Shown here: positions 5,888 to 26,903 of the stretch, one piece after another | Numbering within the stretch: position 1 is the first letter of the stretch | Layout of the letters: each line of letters opens with the position of its first letter | NCBI RefSeq assembly: GCF_013299185.1 | Contig: NZ_JAAFKG010000021.1 | Location: forward strand, 1 to 64,000 | Direction: 5' to 3' | DNA length: 64,000 nucleotides | Source of the DNA: Microcoleus sp. bin48.metabat.b7b8b9.023 | GTDB lineage: Bacteria > Cyanobacteriota > Cyanobacteriia > Cyanobacteriales > Microcoleaceae | The notes under the pieces: generated by a model | The model's input: only the letters and a program-made list of their open reading frames with translations | Told to the model about the DNA's origin: nothing | Databases searched by the model: none | Position numbers and translations under genes: made by a program

Positions 5888-6125
5888 ATGCTAGAAACCA
5901 CCATCCTAGAAAGCCTAGTCAAGTTGCCAGATTCTCTGAAACAGGAAGTGCTGCACTATATAGAATTCTTAGTTTTAGTCAGCCGCAACGAAGTGTTGGA
6001 TGCTTATGTTGTTCGTGGATTTTCGACACAGATCGTATTTCTCTGGTGTTGCAGGGTAATCCCAAGGTAATCGCGCAACTAGGAAAACCCTCTGCACATA
6101 CTTTGGTATCATACTGCAAATGTGA
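5888..6125 (+). pseudogene. Remnant of a vapBC-like toxin-antitoxin module
   Basis: The frame beginning at 5888 opens like a small VapB/DUF2281 antitoxin (MLETTILESLVKLPDSLKQE) but loses that character after about 30 codons. From about 6013 another frame reads WIFDTDRISLVLQGNPKVI, the start of a PIN-domain (VapC) ribonuclease with the DTD metal motif, and ends its similarity near 6110. Both genes are therefore truncated. The VapC remnant runs in frame into the large helicase ORF downstream, which explains why that frame is open far upstream of the probable helicase start. Confidence 0.65.
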
Positions 6126-6135
6126 TATAGTTACT

Positions 6136-6203
6136 AGATATCTCCGAAAATTCGCTCTCAGCCAGACAGGGCAAGGGTTTAAGGTAGTCTTTCGGAGATA
6201 TCT
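6136..6203 (+). promoter_or_regulatory. Inverted repeat upstream of the helicase gene
   Basis: A perfect 14-bp inverted repeat (AGATATCTCCGAAA at 6136-6149, complement at 6190-6203) with a 40-base spacer, lying 98 bases before the likely helicase start. It could be an operator, a leader hairpin or a junction scar of the vapBC deletion. No ribosome binding site is evident before ATG 6301. Confidence 0.45.
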
Positions 6204-6300
6204 ACTAGCTGTGCGGAACTTACGAGTTGTCTTTGATTCCCCGTATAGGTCTTTTGTCAGCTACTACCTGAATACTTACCAAAAAACTTTCCCAAAGCTT

Positions 6301-9300
6301 ATGTATATCTATATTACACAGCAGTGCCAGGATAACGCTGAAAAGTATTATATCCAACCTAAAATCACTGAACTTTATGATAACTCCGAAGTGTTAGATC
6401 TCTTCGATCCAATTTATCCTTACTGGAAGCGAAGAATAGGGAAATACAGGTTATTAGCAAAGATCGAAGAGGTCGATAATGAGAAGATTCTCTGCTTACT
6501 AAATATTCTGGAGCGAAAAAGTCAAGAGTATGAAGAATTTACAGACAAAAATAAACGTCAAAAATTTGGTCAAGACAAGTTAGAGTCATTACTGAATGAT
6601 GATGAGATTAAGGAATGGCTAAATGAACAAAAAGAATCGGTTTGTCAACAGCAAAAAAAACGCGAGCCTCTTCCAAACGATCTGTTAGTCTGGCTAGAGC
6701 TACCTAGCTGGAGTAAAGACTCTAAAGACTTGGTGATTTACGAAAGCGAACAATGGTTGAAAAAGTGCGGACAAGAGAGAATCAAAGACCGACGGGAAAC
6801 TTTCAAAAATATTATTCTCGACATTATTAGTCAAAATGATGTGGAAGATGAAAGCACAAGTTGCTCTCGTGTAAAGTTATATAGCGACACGGAAGGGTTA
6901 TCGATTTTGTTTAGTAGGATCGAAACTATTGCTACTGAAGATACGTCCTCTAGAAAAATTTTATTTTTGCTTGCTCCTTTTCTTGAAAGACCATTGGATG
7001 ACCTTATAAGAGAAGTAGTAGAGGAGATCGGTCTTTCCGACTTTGGTGAAAATGTTAATAATCTTCCGGCTAAATATAGTATGGATGAGTTAGCTCGTCT
7101 AGCCCGACGTTCTTATCCAGCATACCTACTATTAGATTTTGCAAGTTGGCTAGCTATTGAAAAAGATGACGAATCAAATCTAGCTCTCTCAGTGGAAGAA
7201 GAACAAATTTTAGAATCTATTTCAACTCCACAAAAACCCTCCCTACCGATGTTTATCAATGGACGAGCTGGGAGTGGCAAATCTACAATGTTATTCCACC
7301 TTTTTGCTGATTACTGCGATCGCCACTGGAACTCTTGTCAAGCAGGAGAATATGATTTTTATCAAAAGCCACACCCTCTTTTTCTAACTTACAGCGAGAG
7401 CCTGCTCAAGGTAGCTAAAGATTCAGTGCAAAGCCTTTTAAAATCTCATCATAAATTTTTATTAGATAGAGAAAAGCCAGAAGCAGAAACACCAGATGTA
7501 GAACGATTTTTTCAACCCTTCCAGAAATTTTTATTAAATTTTTTACCACCTACAGAATACGACCGATTTAAGCCAGAAAAATACATTTCTTATAACCAGT
7601 TTCGACAGCTTTATAATGATTCTAAACTCCCAGAAGCAAGAAATAAACGCTACTCAGCAGGGCGATGCTGGTACATCATTAGAACTTTGATTAAAGGCTA
7701 CTCTCTTGATGGATATATAAACGAAGACGATTATAAAGAATTACCGCGCGAGGAACAACGCAAGATTCCAGAAGAGACATTCAAAGGAATTTATAAAACG
7801 GTTTGGAAATGGTATGAAAGGCTAATTGAAGATAAGGGCTACTGGGACGATCAAGACTTAATTAGAATAGTCCTAGAAGGGAAACGTTTCTCTTCTGAAT
7901 ACACGGCAATTTTTTGCGATGAATCTCAAGATTTTACGAGACTAGAACTGCAACTCATCGTCAAGCTTTCTGTTTTTTCTAAATATGATTTTGGATTTAA
8001 CTATGTTTCTGTCCTACCCTTTACCTTTGCTGGCGATCCTTTTCAAACCTTAAACCCTACTGGATTTCGTTGGGATAGCGTCGGGGCATTGTTTTACAAC
8101 GAAGTTGTAATGAGGCTCGATCCAGCAAGTAAACTTAATATAAAGATGAATTTTAAGGAGCTACAAGTTAATTATCGCTCTAGCTCATCTATCGTTAAAG
8201 TGACCAATTTAATCCAATTGTGGCGCTGTGTTCGTTTCGGCCTACCTGACATTAAGCCACAAACTCCGTGGGACAGAAAAGACAGTTTTTCTAAACCGCA
8301 AAAGTTTATTTTTGGTCAGAATCTCTCGTTAGACGATTTAAAAAACCATATCGACAATAAGCCGATTTTCATTCTACCCTGTGAAGCTGGCGGGGAAATT
8401 GACTATATCAAAAGTGATGAAGTTCTTTTGGAATTATTTCCACAAGCCAAGGAGGGAAAAACGCCAGAGAACGTATACAGTGCCATCAAAGCAAAGGGTC
8501 TGGAGTTCCCGCTGGTCATCCTATACAAATTTGGGCATGAGTTGGCTCAAGAAGAATACAATGCGAACTTTGTATGGAACTTTGACGCTAATAGTCAAAT
8601 AGATTCAGTAGAGTTAGAATACTACTTTAACAAGCTTTACGTTGCGGCTAGCCGAGCGATGTCTGATTTGGTTGTCATTGACTCAAAAGAAGGAGATGAA
8701 TTGCTGTGGCAGCAGGCTAGTGACGATCGGATCGATGGATTTCTTGAGCAGTTGGAAGCTGGTAAACGCCACGATTGGACAGAGTTACTCGGAACTATCA
8801 GCATAGGGCAAAGTCTAGAAGTGCTGGATCAGGACAACCGAGAACTCCAAGCCAAGCAGATGAAGAAGCAAGGGTTGGCAGAGGAAAACCCAGAGTTACT
8901 CAGAAATGCAAAAGCGTATTACTATGTGTTAGGAGATACAAAAGAAGTTGAAATCTGCGAAGCTTCGGCGCTCAAATTCGATAATCAGTTTAGTGAGGCT
9001 GGTAAACTTTTCTTGAAGCTAAGTAAGAAGGTAGAGGCTTGGGAATGTTTCTGGGATGGAGCTTGTTGGCAAGAACTGAAGCGATGGTGTGAAGAAAACC
9101 CCAATCAGAAACCAGTAGACCGTTCTTTAGTGGAATTCATGATTGAGGTAGATCCGAAATCTTTCGATGTTCTCAATAAATTCACCGAGTTCCTTGAAAA
9201 GCGTAATGAGAACAACTCACTGAAAAACTGCCGTTCGAGCAAACCCTGGCAAGCAGCGATCGAGGAATATGCCATCCAAATTGATATAAAGTTGATGAAC

Positions 9301-10479
9301 GAACAGAGTCTCACCTGCGATCAATGGCAACGATTTGGAAATCTATTACAAGACTTGCAACAAGCTGGTTATAACAAAACAATAGAAGTGGCGGGAAGTT
9401 CTTTCTACCAAGCCAAAGATTATAAAGGTGCTGTGCGCTGCTGGGATCAGTGTGAAGTTCCCCAAAAGCGCAAGTATAACTTAGCTAAAGCTGAAGTCGA
9501 AGGTTTTCCCCAAGGCTTACAATACCTCCAAAAAGAAGGAGAAGATCTGCGGATTATTCAGGAGTGGGAAAGAAAAGGAAAACCCGATAAATCTCAATGG
9601 TTAGACTATGTTGTACCAGCCCTTCAAAACCAGAATGGACATCAAGAGCTAGTTGATTACTTAATTCAGCGAAAATTGTGGAGCAAAGCCATAGAAGCAA
9701 TAGCTAAGCATCCTCATCCCAATGAAGCAAAAAGTTTGAAGTTTGATGTCGTCCGTGGAATTGCTTACTCAGATCTTACACCAGATACTGCTCGATCAGA
9801 ACGCCAACGTTATCAGAACTTTATAACTTCAGTTCGAGGTTTTTCCGATTGGCAGAAGCATATAACTGTACAAGAAGTTGGTGCTGCAATGGAGAGAATT
9901 GGTGAGTTTGTGCCATGCTTAGAATTTTATGAGCAATTTGTTGATGATTCCAACTCTAAGCTACGAAATTTTGCACGAGAGCGTTGGATTGCCACTAAGA
10001 AAAAGCAGGTAGACTACGAGGGAAGCACAGATGGTGGCAAATTGAAGCAAAGACAGGACGAACTTGATGAGAATGCTCATAAATGGAGCATAGATCGAAA
10101 ATCAGTCTCTGACCTTCCAGAGCTTACTGTTCCACTAGCAGAGCCATCAAACACGGAAGTCAAGAGAGAAGCTGATTGGAAAAATTTAGGCAATGGCGTC
10201 GAACAGCGTGACATAGGTCGTCTTAAATTGATGAGAATCAAGACGATTAAGCAGCTAACTATTACTGATGATACATCCAAGATATTGCAAGTAACTTTGG
10301 ATTCTGGGAAATGCACCATTAAAGGTAAAGTTGAAGATGTGGAAGTATCGGGCAGCAACAGATTATTTTTCAAGGTTCCTGAAAGTGGTTACACCTGTGA
10401 AGTCTTCTACGGTGATGCTTCTCCAATGCTTGAACTGAATATTCAAGGTCTATCAGATAAAATCACCATAAAACTCTAA
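6301..10479 (+). CDS. Very large SF1 (UvrD/Rep-like) helicase with C-terminal repeat region
   Basis: A protein of about 1392 residues, counted from ATG 6301. The frame is open back to GTG 6046, but that part encodes VapC debris. Superfamily-1 helicase motifs in order: Walker A GRAGSGKST (321-329), Walker B/DEAD-box-like FCDESQDF (D540/E541), motif III FAGDPFQTLNPTGF (~575), motif IV QVNYRSS (~622), motif V KAKGLEFPLVIL (~731) and motif VI KLYVAASRAMSDLVVI (~778). Residues ~1-320 hold extra domains; RRIGKYRLLAKI near the start resembles the core strands of RelE toxins, which is only suggestive. The last ~550 residues look like TPR-type helical repeats, and no nuclease motif was found. The gene is AT-richer and poorer in HIP1 sites than its neighbours, consistent with transfer. 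A role in anti-phage defence or DNA surveillance is inference. Confidence 0.85.
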   Translation: MYIYITQQCQDNAEKYYIQPKITELYDNSEVLDLFDPIYPYWKRRIGKYRLLAKIEEVDNEKILCLLNILERKSQEYEEFTDKNKRQKFGQDKLESLLNDDEIKEWLNEQKESVCQQQKKREPLPNDLLVWLELPSWSKDSKDLVIYESEQWLKKCGQERIKDRRETFKNIILDIISQNDVEDESTSCSRVKLYSDTEGLSILFSRIETIATEDTSSRKILFLLAPFLERPLDDLIREVVEEIGLSDFGENVNNLPAKYSMDELARLARRSYPAYLLLDFASWLAIEKDDESNLALSVEEEQILESISTPQKPSLPMFINGRAGSGKSTMLFHLFADYCDRHWNSCQAGEYDFYQKPHPLFLTYSESLLKVAKDSVQSLLKSHHKFLLDREKPEAETPDVERFFQPFQKFLLNFLPPTEYDRFKPEKYISYNQFRQLYNDSKLPEARNKRYSAGRCWYIIRTLIKGYSLDGYINEDDYKELPREEQRKIPEETFKGIYKTVWKWYERLIEDKGYWDDQDLIRIVLEGKRFSSEYTAIFCDESQDFTRLELQLIVKLSVFSKYDFGFNYVSVLPFTFAGDPFQTLNPTGFRWDSVGALFYNEVVMRLDPASKLNIKMNFKELQVNYRSSSSIVKVTNLIQLWRCVRFGLPDIKPQTPWDRKDSFSKPQKFIFGQNLSLDDLKNHIDNKPIFILPCEAGGEIDYIKSDEVLLELFPQAKEGKTPENVYSAIKAKGLEFPLVILYKFGHELAQEEYNANFVWNFDANSQIDSVELEYYFNKLYVAASRAMSDLVVIDSKEGDELLWQQASDDRIDGFLEQLEAGKRHDWTELLGTISIGQSLEVLDQDNRELQAKQMKKQGLAEENPELLRNAKAYYYVLGDTKEVEICEASALKFDNQFSEAGKLFLKLSKKVEAWECFWDGACWQELKRWCEENPNQKPVDRSLVEFMIEVDPKSFDVLNKFTEFLEKRNENNSLKNCRSSKPWQAAIEEYAIQIDIKLMNEQSLTCDQWQRFGNLLQDLQQAGYNKTIEVAGSSFYQAKDYKGAVRCWDQCEVPQKRKYNLAKAEVEGFPQGLQYLQKEGEDLRIIQEWERKGKPDKSQWLDYVVPALQNQNGHQELVDYLIQRKLWSKAIEAIAKHPHPNEAKSLKFDVVRGIAYSDLTPDTARSERQRYQNFITSVRGFSDWQKHITVQEVGAAMERIGEFVPCLEFYEQFVDDSNSKLRNFARERWIATKKKQVDYEGSTDGGKLKQRQDELDENAHKWSIDRKSVSDLPELTVPLAEPSNTEVKREADWKNLGNGVEQRDIGRLKLMRIKTIKQLTITDDTSKILQVTLDSGKCTIKGKVEDVEVSGSNRLFFKVPESGYTCEVFYGDASPMLELNIQGLSDKITIKL

Positions 10480-10746: not shown

Positions 10747-12831
10747 CTACTTAGCAGCTTGACGCTCTTTCGCATCCTTGATCACTTCCTCAGCGATATT
10801 GCTCGGACAAGGAGCATAGTGCGAGAAAGACATGGAAAACTGGCCGCGCCCAGAAGTCATGGTACGCAAATCGCCAATGTAGCCAAACATTTCGCTCAAC
10901 GGCACATCAGCCTTGATCCGCGCTCCTGTTTGGTTTGTTTCTTGAGATTTCATCATCCCCCGGCGGCGGTTGAGGTCGCCGATGACATCGCCCATGTGAT
11001 CGTCTGGGGTGAACACATCGACATTCATGATCGGTTCGAGCAACTGAGGCCCAGCCTTGGGTACAGATTGGCGGTAGGCGGCTTTGGCTGCAATTTCAAA
11101 AGCCATTGCTGAAGAGTCAACTGGGTGGAAACCTCCATCCAGCAGGGTGAATTTCAAGTCCAAGCAGGGGAATCCAGCCAAGACGCCCACATCGATGCAG
11201 CTTTGGAAGCCTTTTTGCACGGCTGGCCAATACTCTCTGGGGACGCTACCGCCGGTTACTTTTGACTCGAACACGAAGCCACTTCCGACTTCACCAGGCT
11301 CGACGATATAGCCAATTTTCGCAAATTGACCCGAACCACCAGATTGTTTCTTGTGGGTGTAGTTGTCTTCGAGGCGCTTGGTGATTGACTCGCGGTAGGC
11401 TACTTGGGGTTCGCCAACTTCTACCTCGACGCCGTGGGTGCGTCGCAGAATGTCCACTTTGATGTCGAGGTGCAGTTCGCCCATGCCCTTGAGGATGGTT
11501 TCGCCACTTTCTTCGTCTGTCACCATGTGGAAAGATGGGTCTTCTTGTACCATCTTGGTCAGTGCGGCGCCCATTTTTTCTTCGCCTCCTTTGAGTTTCG
11601 GTTTGACCGAAATGGAGATGACTGGTTCTGGGAACACCATTGGCTCCAGGGTTGCGGGATTTTTGGGGTCGCAGATGGTGTGTCCGGTGCGGACGTTTTT
11701 CATACCTACGATCGCAATAATATCGCCTGCTTGAGCTGAGTCAATTTCTTCGCGGGAGTTGGCGTGCATTTCTACCAAACGGCTGATGCGCTCGGTTTTA
11801 CCTGTGGCGGTGTTGAGTACGGTGTCGCCTTTCGATATCCTACCGGAGTACAAGCGCGTGAAGGTTAAAGCTCCGAAGCGATCGTCCATAATCTTAAATG
11901 CTAGGGCGCGCAGGGGTCTTTCTGGATCGACGATCGCGAAATTGCCTGTTTCCTCGCCTTCGAGATCCACCTCAGGCTGAGGCGTAACTTCCATCGGGTT
12001 CGGGAGGTAGTCAACGACTGCATCGAGTACCAACTGGACGCCCTTATTCTTAAACGACGAGCCGCAGTAGGTGGGGAAAAATGCCATGTCGCGGGTGCCT
12101 TTGCGGATGCACCGTTTCAAATCTTCGATACTCGGCTCGTTGCCTTCGAGGTACTGTTCCATCAGGTTATCATCCTGCTCGACAGCCAGTTCGATCAACT
12201 GTTCGCGGTATTTCTCGACATCATCGACCATATCGGCCGGAACATCCTGAATTGTGTAGCCCATCGGATCGCCCGAATCATCCCAGATCCATGCTTTGCG
12301 GGTGAGCAAATCGACCATGCCGCAAAATTTGTCTTCAATGCCGATCGGCAAAACCATTACCATTGGTTTAGCTGCGAGAACTTTATCGACTTGGTTGACA
12401 ACTCGGTAAAAATCTGCGCCCGTGCGATCGAGCTTATTGATATAGACGATACGAGCAACTTTAGAATCGTTAGCGTAGCGCCAGTTAGTTTCCGATTGCG
12501 GTTCAACTCCACCGGAACCGCAGAACACACCGATACCGCCATCGAGAACCTTCAGAGAGCGGTAAACCTCGATCGTAAAATCGACGTGTCCGGGAGTATC
12601 AATGATGTTGAGCTGATGCTCGTTCCAGAAGCAGGTAGTAGCAGCGGATTGAATGGTAATCCCGCGCTCTTGCTCCTGTTCCATGAAGTCAGTCGTCGCC
12701 GCGCCTTCGTGTACTTCACCGATTTTGTGGATTTTACCCGTCAGTTTCAGGATTCTTTCAGTTGTGGTGGTCTTGCCAGCATCTACGTGGGCGAAGATGC
12801 CGATATTTCGATAACGAGTGAGATCTTTCAT
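10747..12831 (-). CDS. fusA: Elongation factor G paralogue
   Basis: A 694-residue translational GTPase of the EF-G family, which drives ribosomal translocation and/or subunit recycling with EF-G-type GTP hydrolysis. G1 is [11 protein letters not shown] (residues 14-24), switch II is DTPGHVDF and G4 is NKLD; domains II-V continue to the C-terminus with the usual [12 protein letters not shown] stretch. The wording of the G domain ([20 protein letters not shown]) resembles the second EF-G of gammaproteobacteria more than the str-operon EF-G, and no rpsL/rpsG/tuf genes are nearby. It may therefore be a paralogue rather than the main EF-G. A HEARO-like RNA element ends about 20 bases before its ATG, and no ribosome binding site is visible there. 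Confidence 0.93.
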
Positions 12832-12846
12832 AAAAAAATTCGGGAA

Positions 12847-13008
12847 GTGGGAAACGAGCGTGGCTTTAGCCCGCTCGTGGGAAACGGCTCGGGGATTTCA
12901 ATCAAGAGTGAATCTTTCCATTACACGAGGATTGCTTAATTCGGTGTACTTTTGTGATGTACTTTCGATGGGACAATTACCACCTCAAACCTCGCAATCC
13001 GCGATCGT
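12847..13008 (-). repeat. 3' tail of HEARO-like element, ending in a GTTTCCC-flanked hairpin
   Basis: This follows the putative omega RNA on the minus strand and matches 25547-25713 along most of its length, including a GTGGTAATTGTCC/GCGGTAACTGTCC block and CAAAAGTACACC. It ends with a hairpin (12855-12875, loop CTAAAG) bracketed by GTTTCCC and TTTCCCAC. The equivalent hairpin in the other copy has a different but still paired stem. The 3' end lies 15-20 bases before the EF-G start codon. Confidence 0.65.
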
Positions 13009-13236
13009 ATAATGTTTGCTCCTTTATGAGCCTCCCTTGCGGGGTAATGTTAGCTTCGACCTGGTTATCTGGGCTTGTTAGGCTTGCAACACTGTTCCAG
13101 TGACTTTAGAACTGTTTAATTGAAAGCGACAGAGCGGAAAACTAGCTTCGCATTCTCCGGTGTCGTGACCCAAATAACGGCTGCTCTTTCGAGCGGTCTG
13201 GTCAGTACAGCTTGCGAGAGATTCTCTTACAAGCTC
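13009..13236 (-). ncRNA. HEARO-like RNA (IscB-type omega RNA), copy 1, no adjacent iscB
   Basis: A ~228-nt stretch conserved in inverse orientation with 25325-25546 and full of paired segments. From its 5' end: hairpin AGCTTG...CAAGCT, the block CTGACCAGACC, CACGACACCGGAGAATGCG, GTCACTGGAACAGTGTTGCA, ATAACCAGGTCGAAG, CATTACCCCGCAAGGGAGGC and GGAGCAAACATTA. The spacing of CCGGA-AUGC-CAGUU-like, AUAACCAGG and AACAUUACC blocks resembles the omega RNA used by IscB nucleases (HEARO RNA). No HNH/RuvC gene is adjacent. By analogy the guide would be the ~16-20 bases 5' of the first hairpin (about 13237-13256). Confidence 0.68.
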
Positions 13237-13692
13237 AGTAGCTAAAGCCCTGAGTTACTGACAATTACTGTTGAGATTAAATGCGAGGAACCGTCGGCCA
13301 CCCGTCGGCCACCCACCTGCAAGCGTGACAAGCGAGGAATCAATGTTGCCTGGGGCCGGCGAGTACAGGTTGGATTTGCTTTTTCCTGTTTCTGGCAGCA
13401 CTACCTTAATTTTGACACTTCCCCGTCATTCCTGCGAAGGATTTTTAGTTCGATCGGTGCGGGAATCCTTACAATCATAAAAATAACCCAGACGGAGGCA
13501 AAAATTCTCTCACAAAATAGGTTGGGTTGAGGCACTCATTGAACAAATAGGACTTAGACATGAAGCCCAGAAACCAGTTTTTTTTTAAGAAAATACTTTG
13601 TTGTCAGTGAAAGGAAGAAGGAATAATGCTTATAGAGCAAGCTTTATCGCAAATCGGCACCTGATATTTAATTAAGCTGCGTCCGAAACTAT
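13237..13692. other. Intergenic region upstream of HEARO copy 1; no gene seen
   Basis: This contains the presumed guide-side flank (a CTCAG/CTGAG hairpin around 13232-13256) and a directly repeated GTCGGCCACCC at about 13290-13312. The rest is unremarkable. The only open frames are short shadows. The promoter for the EF-G paralogue presumably lies here, so the HEARO sequence would be part of its leader. Confidence 0.35.
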
Positions 13693-24666: not shown

Positions 24667-25293
24667 ATGGATGTTGCCGTGATCTTAATGCCGTCAGAAA
24701 CTTCGCTTACCGAGTCAAACCCGTTGATTTTAGACAGTTTGCCAGATTTGTCGCCGAACGAGGGTGGGTGTCCCCGCCGGACTAGATTGCAAATTGACTT
24801 GATGTTGCTGGCGATCGAGGCCTTGTATCTCGGAGGTGCGGAAGAAATGCTGGCAGTGTCAAAGGAGCTGGAATTGGAGTCAATTGTCAAAAATCGCGTT
24901 GCCTTTTGGCAGATGCGAAATACTAATCCGCTGAGACGCTATGCCCAACGCCGCTCCCTGACAGTTGTGGAGGCAAAGGCGCTGGTGGCTATCGCCTGTA
25001 ATATGGCGCGCAAGTTAACTGCGACAATTCGGCAGTTGCTGCTAGATTCGCAGCAGTTGCGATCGAAAAATCTTCCCCTCAGTCAGAATTTGCAGCTTGC
25101 CGAGTATTTAGAACGTTTTCGAGCTCATTTTCGATCGCGCATGAACCCCAAGCGATCGGTGGTGGCAGCTTATAATTCTGACGACAAGCTCAACGAACTA
25201 GCTTTGAACTTGTTGAGCAAACTGCTATTTTGTACAGGCACAGCCGGAATGCAGCGCTTCTGGGTTAGCCTGTTTGATGGAGAAATTGAATAA
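24667..25293 (+). CDS. DUF3038 family protein
   Basis: A 208-residue cyanobacterial protein of the DUF3038 family, function unknown. It is soluble and helical; the conserved-looking core is RRTRLQIDLMLLAIEALYLG through NMARKLTATIRQLLL. ATG 24667 is used; MPSETS seven codons later is an alternative. In cyanobacteria this gene usually directly precedes a DUF4335 gene. Here the two are 437 bases apart because a HEARO-like RNA element lies between them. That suggests the element entered an existing operon, or that it serves as the leader of the second gene. Confidence 0.82.
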   Translation: MDVAVILMPSETSLTESNPLILDSLPDLSPNEGGCPRRTRLQIDLMLLAIEALYLGGAEEMLAVSKELELESIVKNRVAFWQMRNTNPLRRYAQRRSLTVVEAKALVAIACNMARKLTATIRQLLLDSQQLRSKNLPLSQNLQLAEYLERFRAHFRSRMNPKRSVVAAYNSDDKLNELALNLLSKLLFCTGTAGMQRFWVSLFDGEIE

Positions 25294-25324
25294 ACGTCAG
25301 GAACTCTGAGGCTCAAGCCACGCT

Positions 25325-25546
25325 CGCTTGTAAGAAATTGCAAGCTGTTCTGACCAGACCCCTTGAAAAAGGAGACGTCCCCCACCGGTCACGACACCGG
25401 AGAATGCGACGCCAGTTTTGGGCTCTGTCATCTGCAATTAAACAGTTTTAAGGTCACTGAAACAGTGTTGCAGGTCTAACAAGCCTTTATAACCAGGTCG
25501 AGGCGAACATTACCCCGTAAGGGAGGCTCCAAAAGAGCAAACATTA
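25325..25546 (+). ncRNA. HEARO-like RNA (IscB-type omega RNA), copy 2, no adjacent iscB
   Basis: A ~222-nt counterpart of the minus-strand copy at 13009-13236. The same order is seen: hairpin GCTTG...CAAGC, CTGACCAGACC with a CC-TTGAAAAAGG hairpin, CACGACACCGGAGAATGCG, CGCCAGTTTT, GTCACTGAAACAGTGTTGCA, ATAACCAGGTCGAGG, CATTACCCCGTAAGGGAGGC and AGAGCAAACATTA. Differences cluster in loops or compensate in stems. The putative guide lies just 5' (about 25305-25324). No nuclease gene is present; the next gene is DUF4335. Confidence 0.68.
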
Positions 25547-25713
25547 TGCGTACAGGGTTGCAAGGTTTGAGGCGGTAACTGTCCTGCTGAAAGTACATTA
25601 CAAAAGTACACCAAGTCGAGCAACTCCAAGGCGGTAATGGATAAAGAAAGATTCAAGGCGGTTGAAACCGCTCTTGGAGTTTCCCTCTCAGGACTAAAGT
25701 CTCTGAGTTTCCC
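25547..25713 (+). repeat. 3' tail of HEARO-like element, ending in a GTTTCCC-flanked hairpin
   Basis: Conserved with 12847-13008. It contains a GGCGGTTGAAACCGC hairpin near 25657 and a final hairpin at 25687-25707 (core GGACTAAAGTC), bracketed by GTTTCCC and TTTCCCAC. It ends about 18 bases before the DUF4335 start codon, the same geometry as the copy before the EF-G gene. Confidence 0.65.
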
Positions 25714-25730
25714 ACTTACCCAGCTATTTT

Positions 25731-26903
25731 ATGACTATTAGGCGTCAGTACAGTCTGCCAAATTGCACCCTGGTTCTAGAAGGGTTGAGCGATGGCTCGG
25801 CATCCAGCCAGCTAGAAATGCGGCCGGTGCTTTCGATATTGATGAGCGTTGAATGCTATGTGACAGGCCTCGGCGAGCCCCTCAGCGGAGGACGGGAGTT
25901 TTTTGAAAGCTTGGTGAGGAATGTTAGCAGCTACGCTCAAGAATTTATGAGCGGAGTGCATTATCCCGATCGCTACGGCCCGAATTTGGGTATGGTACAG
26001 TTGCACAGAATTGACGGGAATTCCCACCGTTTGACCGTTCTACCCGCCGAAGCTGGCAGCGCCACCCAAATCGATCGAAAACCAGAAGTGTCGGCACAGG
26101 TAGATTTGACGACGGTACAGCTATTTGATTTGGTAGAGGCGATCGATCAATTTTTTGCCGACACCCAGACGCTGCCGGAATTGTCGCTGCAATTAACTCC
26201 AATTTCCAAGCGTTATATCAAGTCTGCCGAACCTTTGGCGAAGCGCAGTTTGCCTGCGGTGGTGGGGGTGTCGAGTTTGGCAATGGCTGCGATGGCGTTT
26301 TTCTTGGTACCAGTGCCGGAAGTCCAGCGCCCGAGAGATCCAGTGCCGCAGCCGAATCCAGCAGGCCAAAATCTGGGCACGCCGAATTCCGGTGGTTCGG
26401 GTTCGCCGAATCCCAATCCCACGCCGGCGGCTGACGGTTTGCTTGGGGATAAAACTCCAAAAGTTGTTGAATCGAGTTCACCAACTCCGAGCACTTCGCC
26501 GCAGTCGGACACTTCACCCTTGGCCACGCCGCAGTCGAACATTTCACCGGAAAGCACGCCCACTCCTGTTGCTGAAGGTTTGGCAAGCCCTGGGGCGGCA
26601 GTCGTGGCGATTACCGATCCGGCAGAAATCGATCTGTTGAAGGGCAAACTTTCCCAGCAAATTGACGGAGTTTTGAAGAATCAGCCTGCTGTTGCTGCGG
26701 AGTTGGTTTATCGGGTAAGTGTGGCTAAAGATGGGGCGATTGTCGGTTACAAGTCGGAAAATTCCGCAGCAGTCGATCGATCCGAAGCGCCGTTGTCCGA
26801 GTTGCTTTACAAACCGGTTGGTACTAGGCCGCCTGCGGAACCGCTGGCTGATTTCCGAGTAGTTATTGCACCGGGCGGTACTGCGGCTGTCACCCCTTGG
26901 TAA
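25731..26903 (+). CDS. DUF4335 family protein
   Basis: A 390-residue cyanobacterial DUF4335 protein, function unknown. The N-terminal ~175 residues form the conserved globular part (RRQYSLPNCTLVLEGLSDG...RPVLSILMSVECYV). One hydrophobic segment follows (VVGVSSLAMAAMAFFLVPV, ~185-203), then a Pro/Ser/Thr-rich linker and a C-terminal domain. It is therefore probably a single-pass membrane protein. It pairs with the upstream DUF3038 gene across the HEARO-like insertion. No ribosome binding site is evident before the ATG, where the element's tail ends. The stop codon is immediately followed by palindromic repeats. Confidence 0.82.
   Translation: MTIRRQYSLPNCTLVLEGLSDGSASSQLEMRPVLSILMSVECYVTGLGEPLSGGREFFESLVRNVSSYAQEFMSGVHYPDRYGPNLGMVQLHRIDGNSHRLTVLPAEAGSATQIDRKPEVSAQVDLTTVQLFDLVEAIDQFFADTQTLPELSLQLTPISKRYIKSAEPLAKRSLPAVVGVSSLAMAAMAFFLVPVPEVQRPRDPVPQPNPAGQNLGTPNSGGSGSPNPNPTPAADGLLGDKTPKVVESSSPTPSTSPQSDTSPLATPQSNISPESTPTPVAEGLASPGAAVVAITDPAEIDLLKGKLSQQIDGVLKNQPAVAAELVYRVSVAKDGAIVGYKSENSAAVDRSEAPLSELLYKPVGTRPPAEPLADFRVVIAPGGTAAVTPW

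Follow-up and report, generated by a model that had tools for sequence, protein, structure and literature searches.

Standalone HEARO elements placed at start codons in Microcoleus, including one abutting an EF-G gene

Mobile elements that carry a HEARO-type omega RNA and no nuclease are inserted strongly in excess exactly at start codons in the genus Microcoleus, and one of them directly abuts the start codon of an EF-G gene in the 64-kb stretch of DNA analyzed here (hereinafter the window). This copy has an omega RNA, two defined ends and a precise insertion at RTGA without target duplication; its genome carries uninterrupted IscB genes, and dozens of siblings are present across the genus. 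With a probability of roughly 0.7, we interpret the feature at the EF-G gene as a 431-nt non-autonomous derivative of an IscB (IS200/IS605-like) element, which is seated at the RTGA of a start codon, is mobilized in trans, shares the transcript of its host gene and is capable of homing. The wider proposal, that these elements form an RNA-guided selfish family for which the start codon is both target and TAM and which captures the host promoter while supplying a new translation start, is offered tentatively and at somewhat less than even odds.

The element at the EF-G gene and its relatives in the genome

A preliminary description of this DNA had proposed a HEARO-like omega RNA on the minus strand and suggested a check with the Rfam covariance model, which indeed gave a significant full-length match to RF02033 (HEARO) at 13262–13044 (−) (E 6.4e-28, 219 nt). 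At 135.2 bits the match exceeds the gathering score of 83 bits, which makes this RNA a HEARO by covariance match. The description was also right that no iscB is present: the ORF check at the locus found no adjoining iscB-like ORF of at least 80 aa, and no HNH-endonuclease ORF lies just 3′ of the RNA, where nine other copies in the genome have an IscB-like ORF. Nor does the element contain the Y1 transposase that would mark it as IS200/IS605-like by its coding content.

The limits of the element, 13262–12832 (431 nt), follow from EF-G loci of the same genus that show the site without it; its 3′ end adjoins the ATG with no intervening nucleotide, the target is not duplicated, and ATGA at 12831–12828 is at once the RTGA target and the EF-G start codon. 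The conserved tail had earlier been thought to stop 15–20 bases short of the start codon, which is wrong, since the empty sites place its end at 12832, against the ATG. Palindromic ends (seen by eye only), a fixed short target at one end and the missing target duplication are those of an IS200/IS605-like element. The palindrome at the 5′ end (Table 1), the like of which also occurs near the 3′ ends of elements, is possibly a putative transposase-binding hairpin. The EF-G gene has as its neighbor an ORF of 1477 aa at 6046–10479 (+), in which a P-loop-like motif is visible by eye.

Table 1. Features of the two HEARO elements in the window and of their target genes
Feature	Position	Strand	Basis or remark
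Presumed guide, 16 nt	13263..13278	-	native EF-G 5′ flank, just outside the element
HEARO / omega RNA scaffold	13044..13262	-	RF02033, 135.2 bits, model positions 1–211
Imperfect palindrome CTCAG..CTGAG, 5′ end, within the omega RNA	13234..13254	-	by eye
Element tail, occupying the place of iscB	12832..13043	-	end from empty sites; 3′-end type also seen in the full-length iscB element L273
3′-end palindrome CGAGCGGGCTAAAGCCACGCTCG, then TTTCCCACTTCCCGAATTTTTTT up to the start codon	12855..12877	-	by eye; conserved end motif
EF-G homologue, 694 aa, insertion target	10747..12831	-	Pfam EF-G domains
Presumed guide, second element	25280..25295	+	3′ end of the upstream gene 24667–25293 plus 2 nt
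Second HEARO / omega RNA	25296..25513	+	RF02033, 99.6 bits
Tail and 3′ end of the second element	25514..25730	+	ends at ATGACTATTAGG
DUF4335 gene, target of the second element	25731..26903	+	PF14233

The window holds a second full-length RF02033 match, overlooked in the preliminary description. It belongs to a standalone element (25296–25730, +) that lies between two nearly abutting genes and directly against the start codon of a DUF4335 gene, and no iscB-like ORF of at least 80 aa was found adjoining this HEARO. The DUF4335 site is empty in 25 of the 26 genus loci read (25 genomes); its last flanking base is C in the genome of the window and A at most other loci, and ATGG stands at one empty locus.

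Also overlooked were the many HEARO copies and IscB genes elsewhere in this genome (G000, one of the 29 genomes of our genus set, all 29 of which have HEARO matches). HEARO matches in this genome number 42, of which 35 exceed the gathering score and seven fall below it. The search for IscB that had been called for found 11 IscB-like RRXRR loci; a HEARO lies immediately 5′ of nine of these, and in ten the match contains no stop. An orphan omega RNA, considered as a candidate, is ruled out by these 42 matches and 11 loci. The one IscB scanned, the 423-aa protein of L027, contains both RRXRR and HNH domains, and its sequence matches IscB chains of solved structure. Ten matches to PF01797 (Y1 transposase) also occur in the genome, all of them outside the EF-G element.

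As for ancestry, the 3′ end of L273, a full-length iscB element of the genus, is of the type found in the standalone copies, and these therefore look like derivatives by internal deletion; the EF-G copy is a probable nuclease-less derivative of an IscB element. Its omega RNA is closest, among the loci compared, to that of L281 in G017 (86% identity), which is followed by an open iscB-like frame of 429 codons, and the nearest IscB-linked omega RNA found in its own genome is only 78% identical. From the three options left by the preliminary description, i.e., a non-autonomous element, a trans-acting guide or a leader, the first emerges as the best supported through this common 3′ end, the precise empty sites and the many copies. 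The genome further yields 40 matches to a profile of the 3′ end, 30 of them with loci, and five of these 30 are solo ends with no HEARO match at the same place. Of the five, L330 is followed by an ATGA whose frame runs for about 101 aa, L329 and L332 by RTGAs with frames of 8 and 5 aa, and L326 and L331 lack an RTGA directly after the end. These solo ends contribute nothing clear to the question of start codons.

Insertion at start codons across the genus

We read the 42 own-genome HEARO loci and the best-scoring 129 of the 369 matches in the 28 other genomes of the genus. The 3′-end profile, built from 24 own-genome ends, recognizes an end within 700 nt in 85 standalone elements at 79 unique sites (one per 14-nt sequence after the insertion), of which one falls at a contig end, leaving 78 classifiable. 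RTGA directly follows the 3′ end in 84 of the 88 profile matches within 700 nt, and three of the remaining four have an ATGA within a few bases downstream. At 58 of the 78 classifiable unique sites with this main end type, the RTGA opens an ORF of at least 60 aa; at the other 20 it opens none of that length. As a null we took the intergenic RTGAs of the window, 37 of 223 of which (26/134 ATGA, 11/89 GTGA) open such an ORF, in a single 64-kb window with crude gene calls and under a rule that also admits chance ORFs and alternative starts. The excess of 58/78 over 37/223 has a Fisher p of 3e-20, and the own genome by itself, with 19 of 27 sites at start codons, gives p 1.7e-8.

Elements longer than 700 nt are left out of this count; with L207, L251 and L281, two of which carry iscB, it becomes 60/80. 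The 3′ ends of L206, L220 and L227, where ATGA lies just outside the search span, were left uncounted. Of the 50 loci in which both the main end and the iscB pattern are missing, 20 (18 unique) have a second type of 3′ end (GGACGGGGTTTC..), and 15 of these 18 unique sites likewise open an ORF of at least 60 aa; the other 30, left unassigned, include some with iscB-like starts or cut by contig ends. We also considered a target motif longer than RTGA as the source of the excess, which is rejected, the profile beyond RTGA showing a mild preference for A only.

The genes entered in this manner mostly encode recognizable proteins. In the own genome, 17 of 19 start-site proteins, EF-G and DUF4335 included, have Pfam families. 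A scan of 30 proteins from the 62 start-site loci (17 own-genome, 13 others) assigned 27 to Pfam families; the 13 others, of which 12 were assigned, had been chosen for their familiar-looking beginnings and are an unfair sample. The targets include ribosomal proteins L13, L18 and L19, trigger factor, two class-II tRNA synthetases, MnmA and GatB, as well as SecG, PsbO, PsbQ, ferredoxin–thioredoxin reductase and argininosuccinate synthase. At three genes, dissimilar elements occupy one start codon in different genomes: at mnmA the omega RNAs are 73% identical as against 95% for the gene, and at two further genes, where the 3′-end types also differ, the values are 84% against 92% and 79% against 88%. 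We read these three as probable separate insertions at the same start codon; in a fourth pair, at the trigger factor gene, the values are 87% and 91%.

Could these be ordinary dead MITEs, that is, passive and decaying leftovers of IscB elements that are seen near gene starts only because insertions within genes were lost? The missing nuclease of the EF-G element would suit such an origin, as would the four relatives with only a 3′ end before EF-G (see below) and the seven scores below the gathering threshold among the genome's 42 HEARO matches. However, the null already omits gene bodies and still stands at 16.6% against 74%, and the six best-scoring HEARO matches of the genome are all standalone copies. 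Moreover, in 53 non-redundant omega RNAs, drawn from the 85 standalone copies and having both RNA ends recognizable, changes occur on both sides in 32 of 57 predicted pairs; such compensatory changes keep the fold, which argues against dead copies. As the insertions are also patchy among close relatives, we consider this explanation unlikely.

The patchiness is seen at sites with and without the element. Among the 22 EF-G loci read in the genus, 15 are empty, three (G000, G006 and G022) have the element and four have only a relic of the 3′ end. In the 15 empty loci the flank ..AATCTCAACAGTAATT, or a close variant of it, is joined straight to ATGAAAGATC, with the last 16 nt exact in ten. The flank that would provide the guide differs by one base in G006, itself a carrier. 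In G017, G002, G018 and G019, about 80 nt before EF-G resemble the 3′ end, the 640 nt read there showing no omega RNA, and a similar 3′ end lies ahead of EF-G in G001; the stretches before the EF-G start at L073, L077, L083 and L084 are possibly relics that now serve as leaders. The genes rplF and rplR, separated by some two bases in 26 of 29 genomes, have an element between them in three (L012, L237 and L361, in G000, G011 and G004), within a ribosomal-protein operon; it measures 312 nt in L012 and L237. Transfer of the element to G022 by local recombination was examined and is unsupported, the first 200 nt of its EF-G gene being equally close to G000, G006 and the element-less G003; a patchy distribution is what can be stated. 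At L085 in G022, upstream of EF-G, the HEARO flank is immediately preceded by what appears by eye to be the end of a TnpB coding sequence.

Such a distribution also bears on whether the host has co-opted the omega RNA to control EF-G and other housekeeping genes, independently of IscB. That several genomes have elements between the native leader and the start codons of core genes would be expected of a domesticated leader. Nonetheless, conservation at an orthologous site, as host selection would produce, is not what is seen: the element is absent from 15 of the 22 EF-G loci and present at three, and at rplR it is present in just three of 29 genomes. The diverse functions of the targets and the patchy insertions are instead those of a mobile element, and we judge co-option to be highly improbable. 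Of the leader option in the preliminary description, what stands is that it fits the position and that the element has no terminator-like site inside; nothing indicates that the host has gained a function.

Beyond the genus, we took one best locus per genome from 28 other genomes of the order. An iscB-like ORF follows the HEARO in 19 of them, and nine look standalone. Six of the nine have an end-like motif (by eye) and then RTGA, which opens at least 60 aa at three (L401, L407 and L411) and less at L390, L395 and L402; L405 and L409 have no clear assignment, and L403 is cut by a contig end. The genes after L401 and L411, going by their first residues, are presumably tatA and efp. These loci provide hints that start-codon placement may be general beyond the genus, from a count (3/6) that is too small to say more.

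Guide, transcript and translation

The IscB guide is 16 nt long. At the EF-G locus the flank lies at the 5′ end of the omega RNA, where a guide is expected, so that a guide of this origin would match the site as it was before insertion, with the start codon as TAM. For the related nickase IsrB, published work gives the TAM as NTGA (TTGA at 60 degrees); several orthologues use NTG, and one uses NTGG (PMC9581776). RTGA fits these motifs, and TAM and start codon would therefore coincide. In the empty sites the flank and RTGA are indeed joined, i.e., the guide is the flank of the element and the TAM lies beyond the joint, as in OMEGA systems, with TAM activity taken from the IsrB literature. A search of the own genome for the guide followed by ATGA, allowing up to three mismatches, returned the flank itself as the sole match, with the element's GTCA in place of ATGA. 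This replacement is what would be expected for self-protection. The option of a trans-acting guide, raised in the preliminary description, is plausible in view of the uninterrupted IscB genes in the genome and the fold kept by compensatory changes in the 53 standalone copies.

Since the element lies between the native 5′ flank and the ATG, we infer that the host promoter would transcribe guide, omega RNA and gene together as a single transcript. A consensus scan of 12832–13262 (−) found no promoter-like or terminator-like match, so that a transcript from the native promoter would hold the guide, the omega RNA, the tail and EF-G. According to the interpretation that we favor, a Y1 transposase and IscB would act in trans on the EF-G element, and the host promoter would give rise to one transcript in which the last bases of the native leader, as the guide, are followed by the omega RNA, the tail and the gene. 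The omega RNA, whether excised or bound in place, might then direct IscB to element-less copies of the site, which IscB would cut with the RTGA of the start codon as TAM. Such cutting of empty sites could in turn bring about retention and homing of the element, and translation would start from the element's own 3′ end.

The native leader is pushed away by 431 nt at EF-G and by 312 nt in the rplF–rplR operon, and the 3′ end of the element must therefore permit translation. In the main standalone end, to which the EF-G copy belongs, pairing with the anti-Shine–Dalgarno sequence falls below −4 kcal/mol in one of 85 copies, and only a U-rich stretch precedes the ATG; a Shine–Dalgarno sequence in the 3′ end of the EF-G copy is accordingly unsupported. 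For ends of iscB elements, the best such pairing in the last 20 nt is −5.7 kcal/mol or stronger in 13 of 16, counted without a shuffled control on ends that were recognized by eye from 33 iscB-linked rows and include some close relatives; the three without such pairing include both recognized own-genome ends (L018 and L027). Shine–Dalgarno-like GGAGG or GAGG occurs a few bases before ATGA in the 3′ ends of several elements that bear iscB or come from outside the genus (L262, L293, L259, L182, L401 and L411), the out-of-genus ends L401 and L411 carrying GGAGG and GAGG. It is as if a transposon end bearing this motif were a portable ribosome-binding site.

Implications and comparison with known systems

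If this interpretation is correct, omega RNAs that lack a nuclease would owe their transcription and retention to the promoters of indispensable genes, on which they ride because start codons coincide with the element's target motif. Essential mRNAs would then double as precursors of guide RNAs, and the element would be hard to lose. It would also be a natural mobile element that enters a ribosomal-protein operon without breaking its genes. The role of standalone omega RNAs would thereby become open to testable predictions, namely chimeric transcripts, IscB-bound RNA from mRNA leaders and cutting of empty sites.

Compared with the HEARO and IscB–IsrB omega RNAs, the EF-G copy has the same full-length covariance match and a flank usable as a 5′ guide. 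The RTGA on its 3′ side is comparable to the NTGA/NTG TAM published for IsrB (PMC9581776). Unlike these systems, the EF-G element has no nuclease ORF, and a host gene comes directly after it. In a Limnospira study, HEARO is listed among radiation-regulated RNAs but omitted from the discussion, and analysis of the location of such RNAs is called for (PMC8400943).

A partial search of literature on HEARO, IscB and related terms found no description of start-codon placement, which is no proof of its being unpublished. The 2009 work on HEARO is said to have noted an ATGA/GTGA target. Standalone omega RNAs in other genomes are reportedly part of Altae-Tran et al. 2021; they share with ours the lack of an adjoining nuclease and the presence of IscB in the genome, and we know of no description of start-codon placement for them there.

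MITE-like and PATE-like are names for non-autonomous elements of the IS200/IS605 family. Those elements resemble the present ones in their palindromic ends (by eye), the fixed target at one end, the lack of duplication and the Y1 transposases located elsewhere. Unlike them, the present elements carry a guide RNA that is complete and conserved in structure, and of the classifiable unique insertions in the genus about three quarters are exactly at start codons. A further parallel is the TnpB gene drive of insertion sequences in plasmids, for which the study describes a guide RNA that records the insertion site and leads to the cutting of copies without the element (PMC11870625). That system involves TnpB and plasmids, whereas here IscB would act in trans on chromosomal sites (PMC11870625). 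Both the HEARO RNA and the IS200/IS605-like non-autonomous element are of known kinds; the unexpected part is their placement at start codons.
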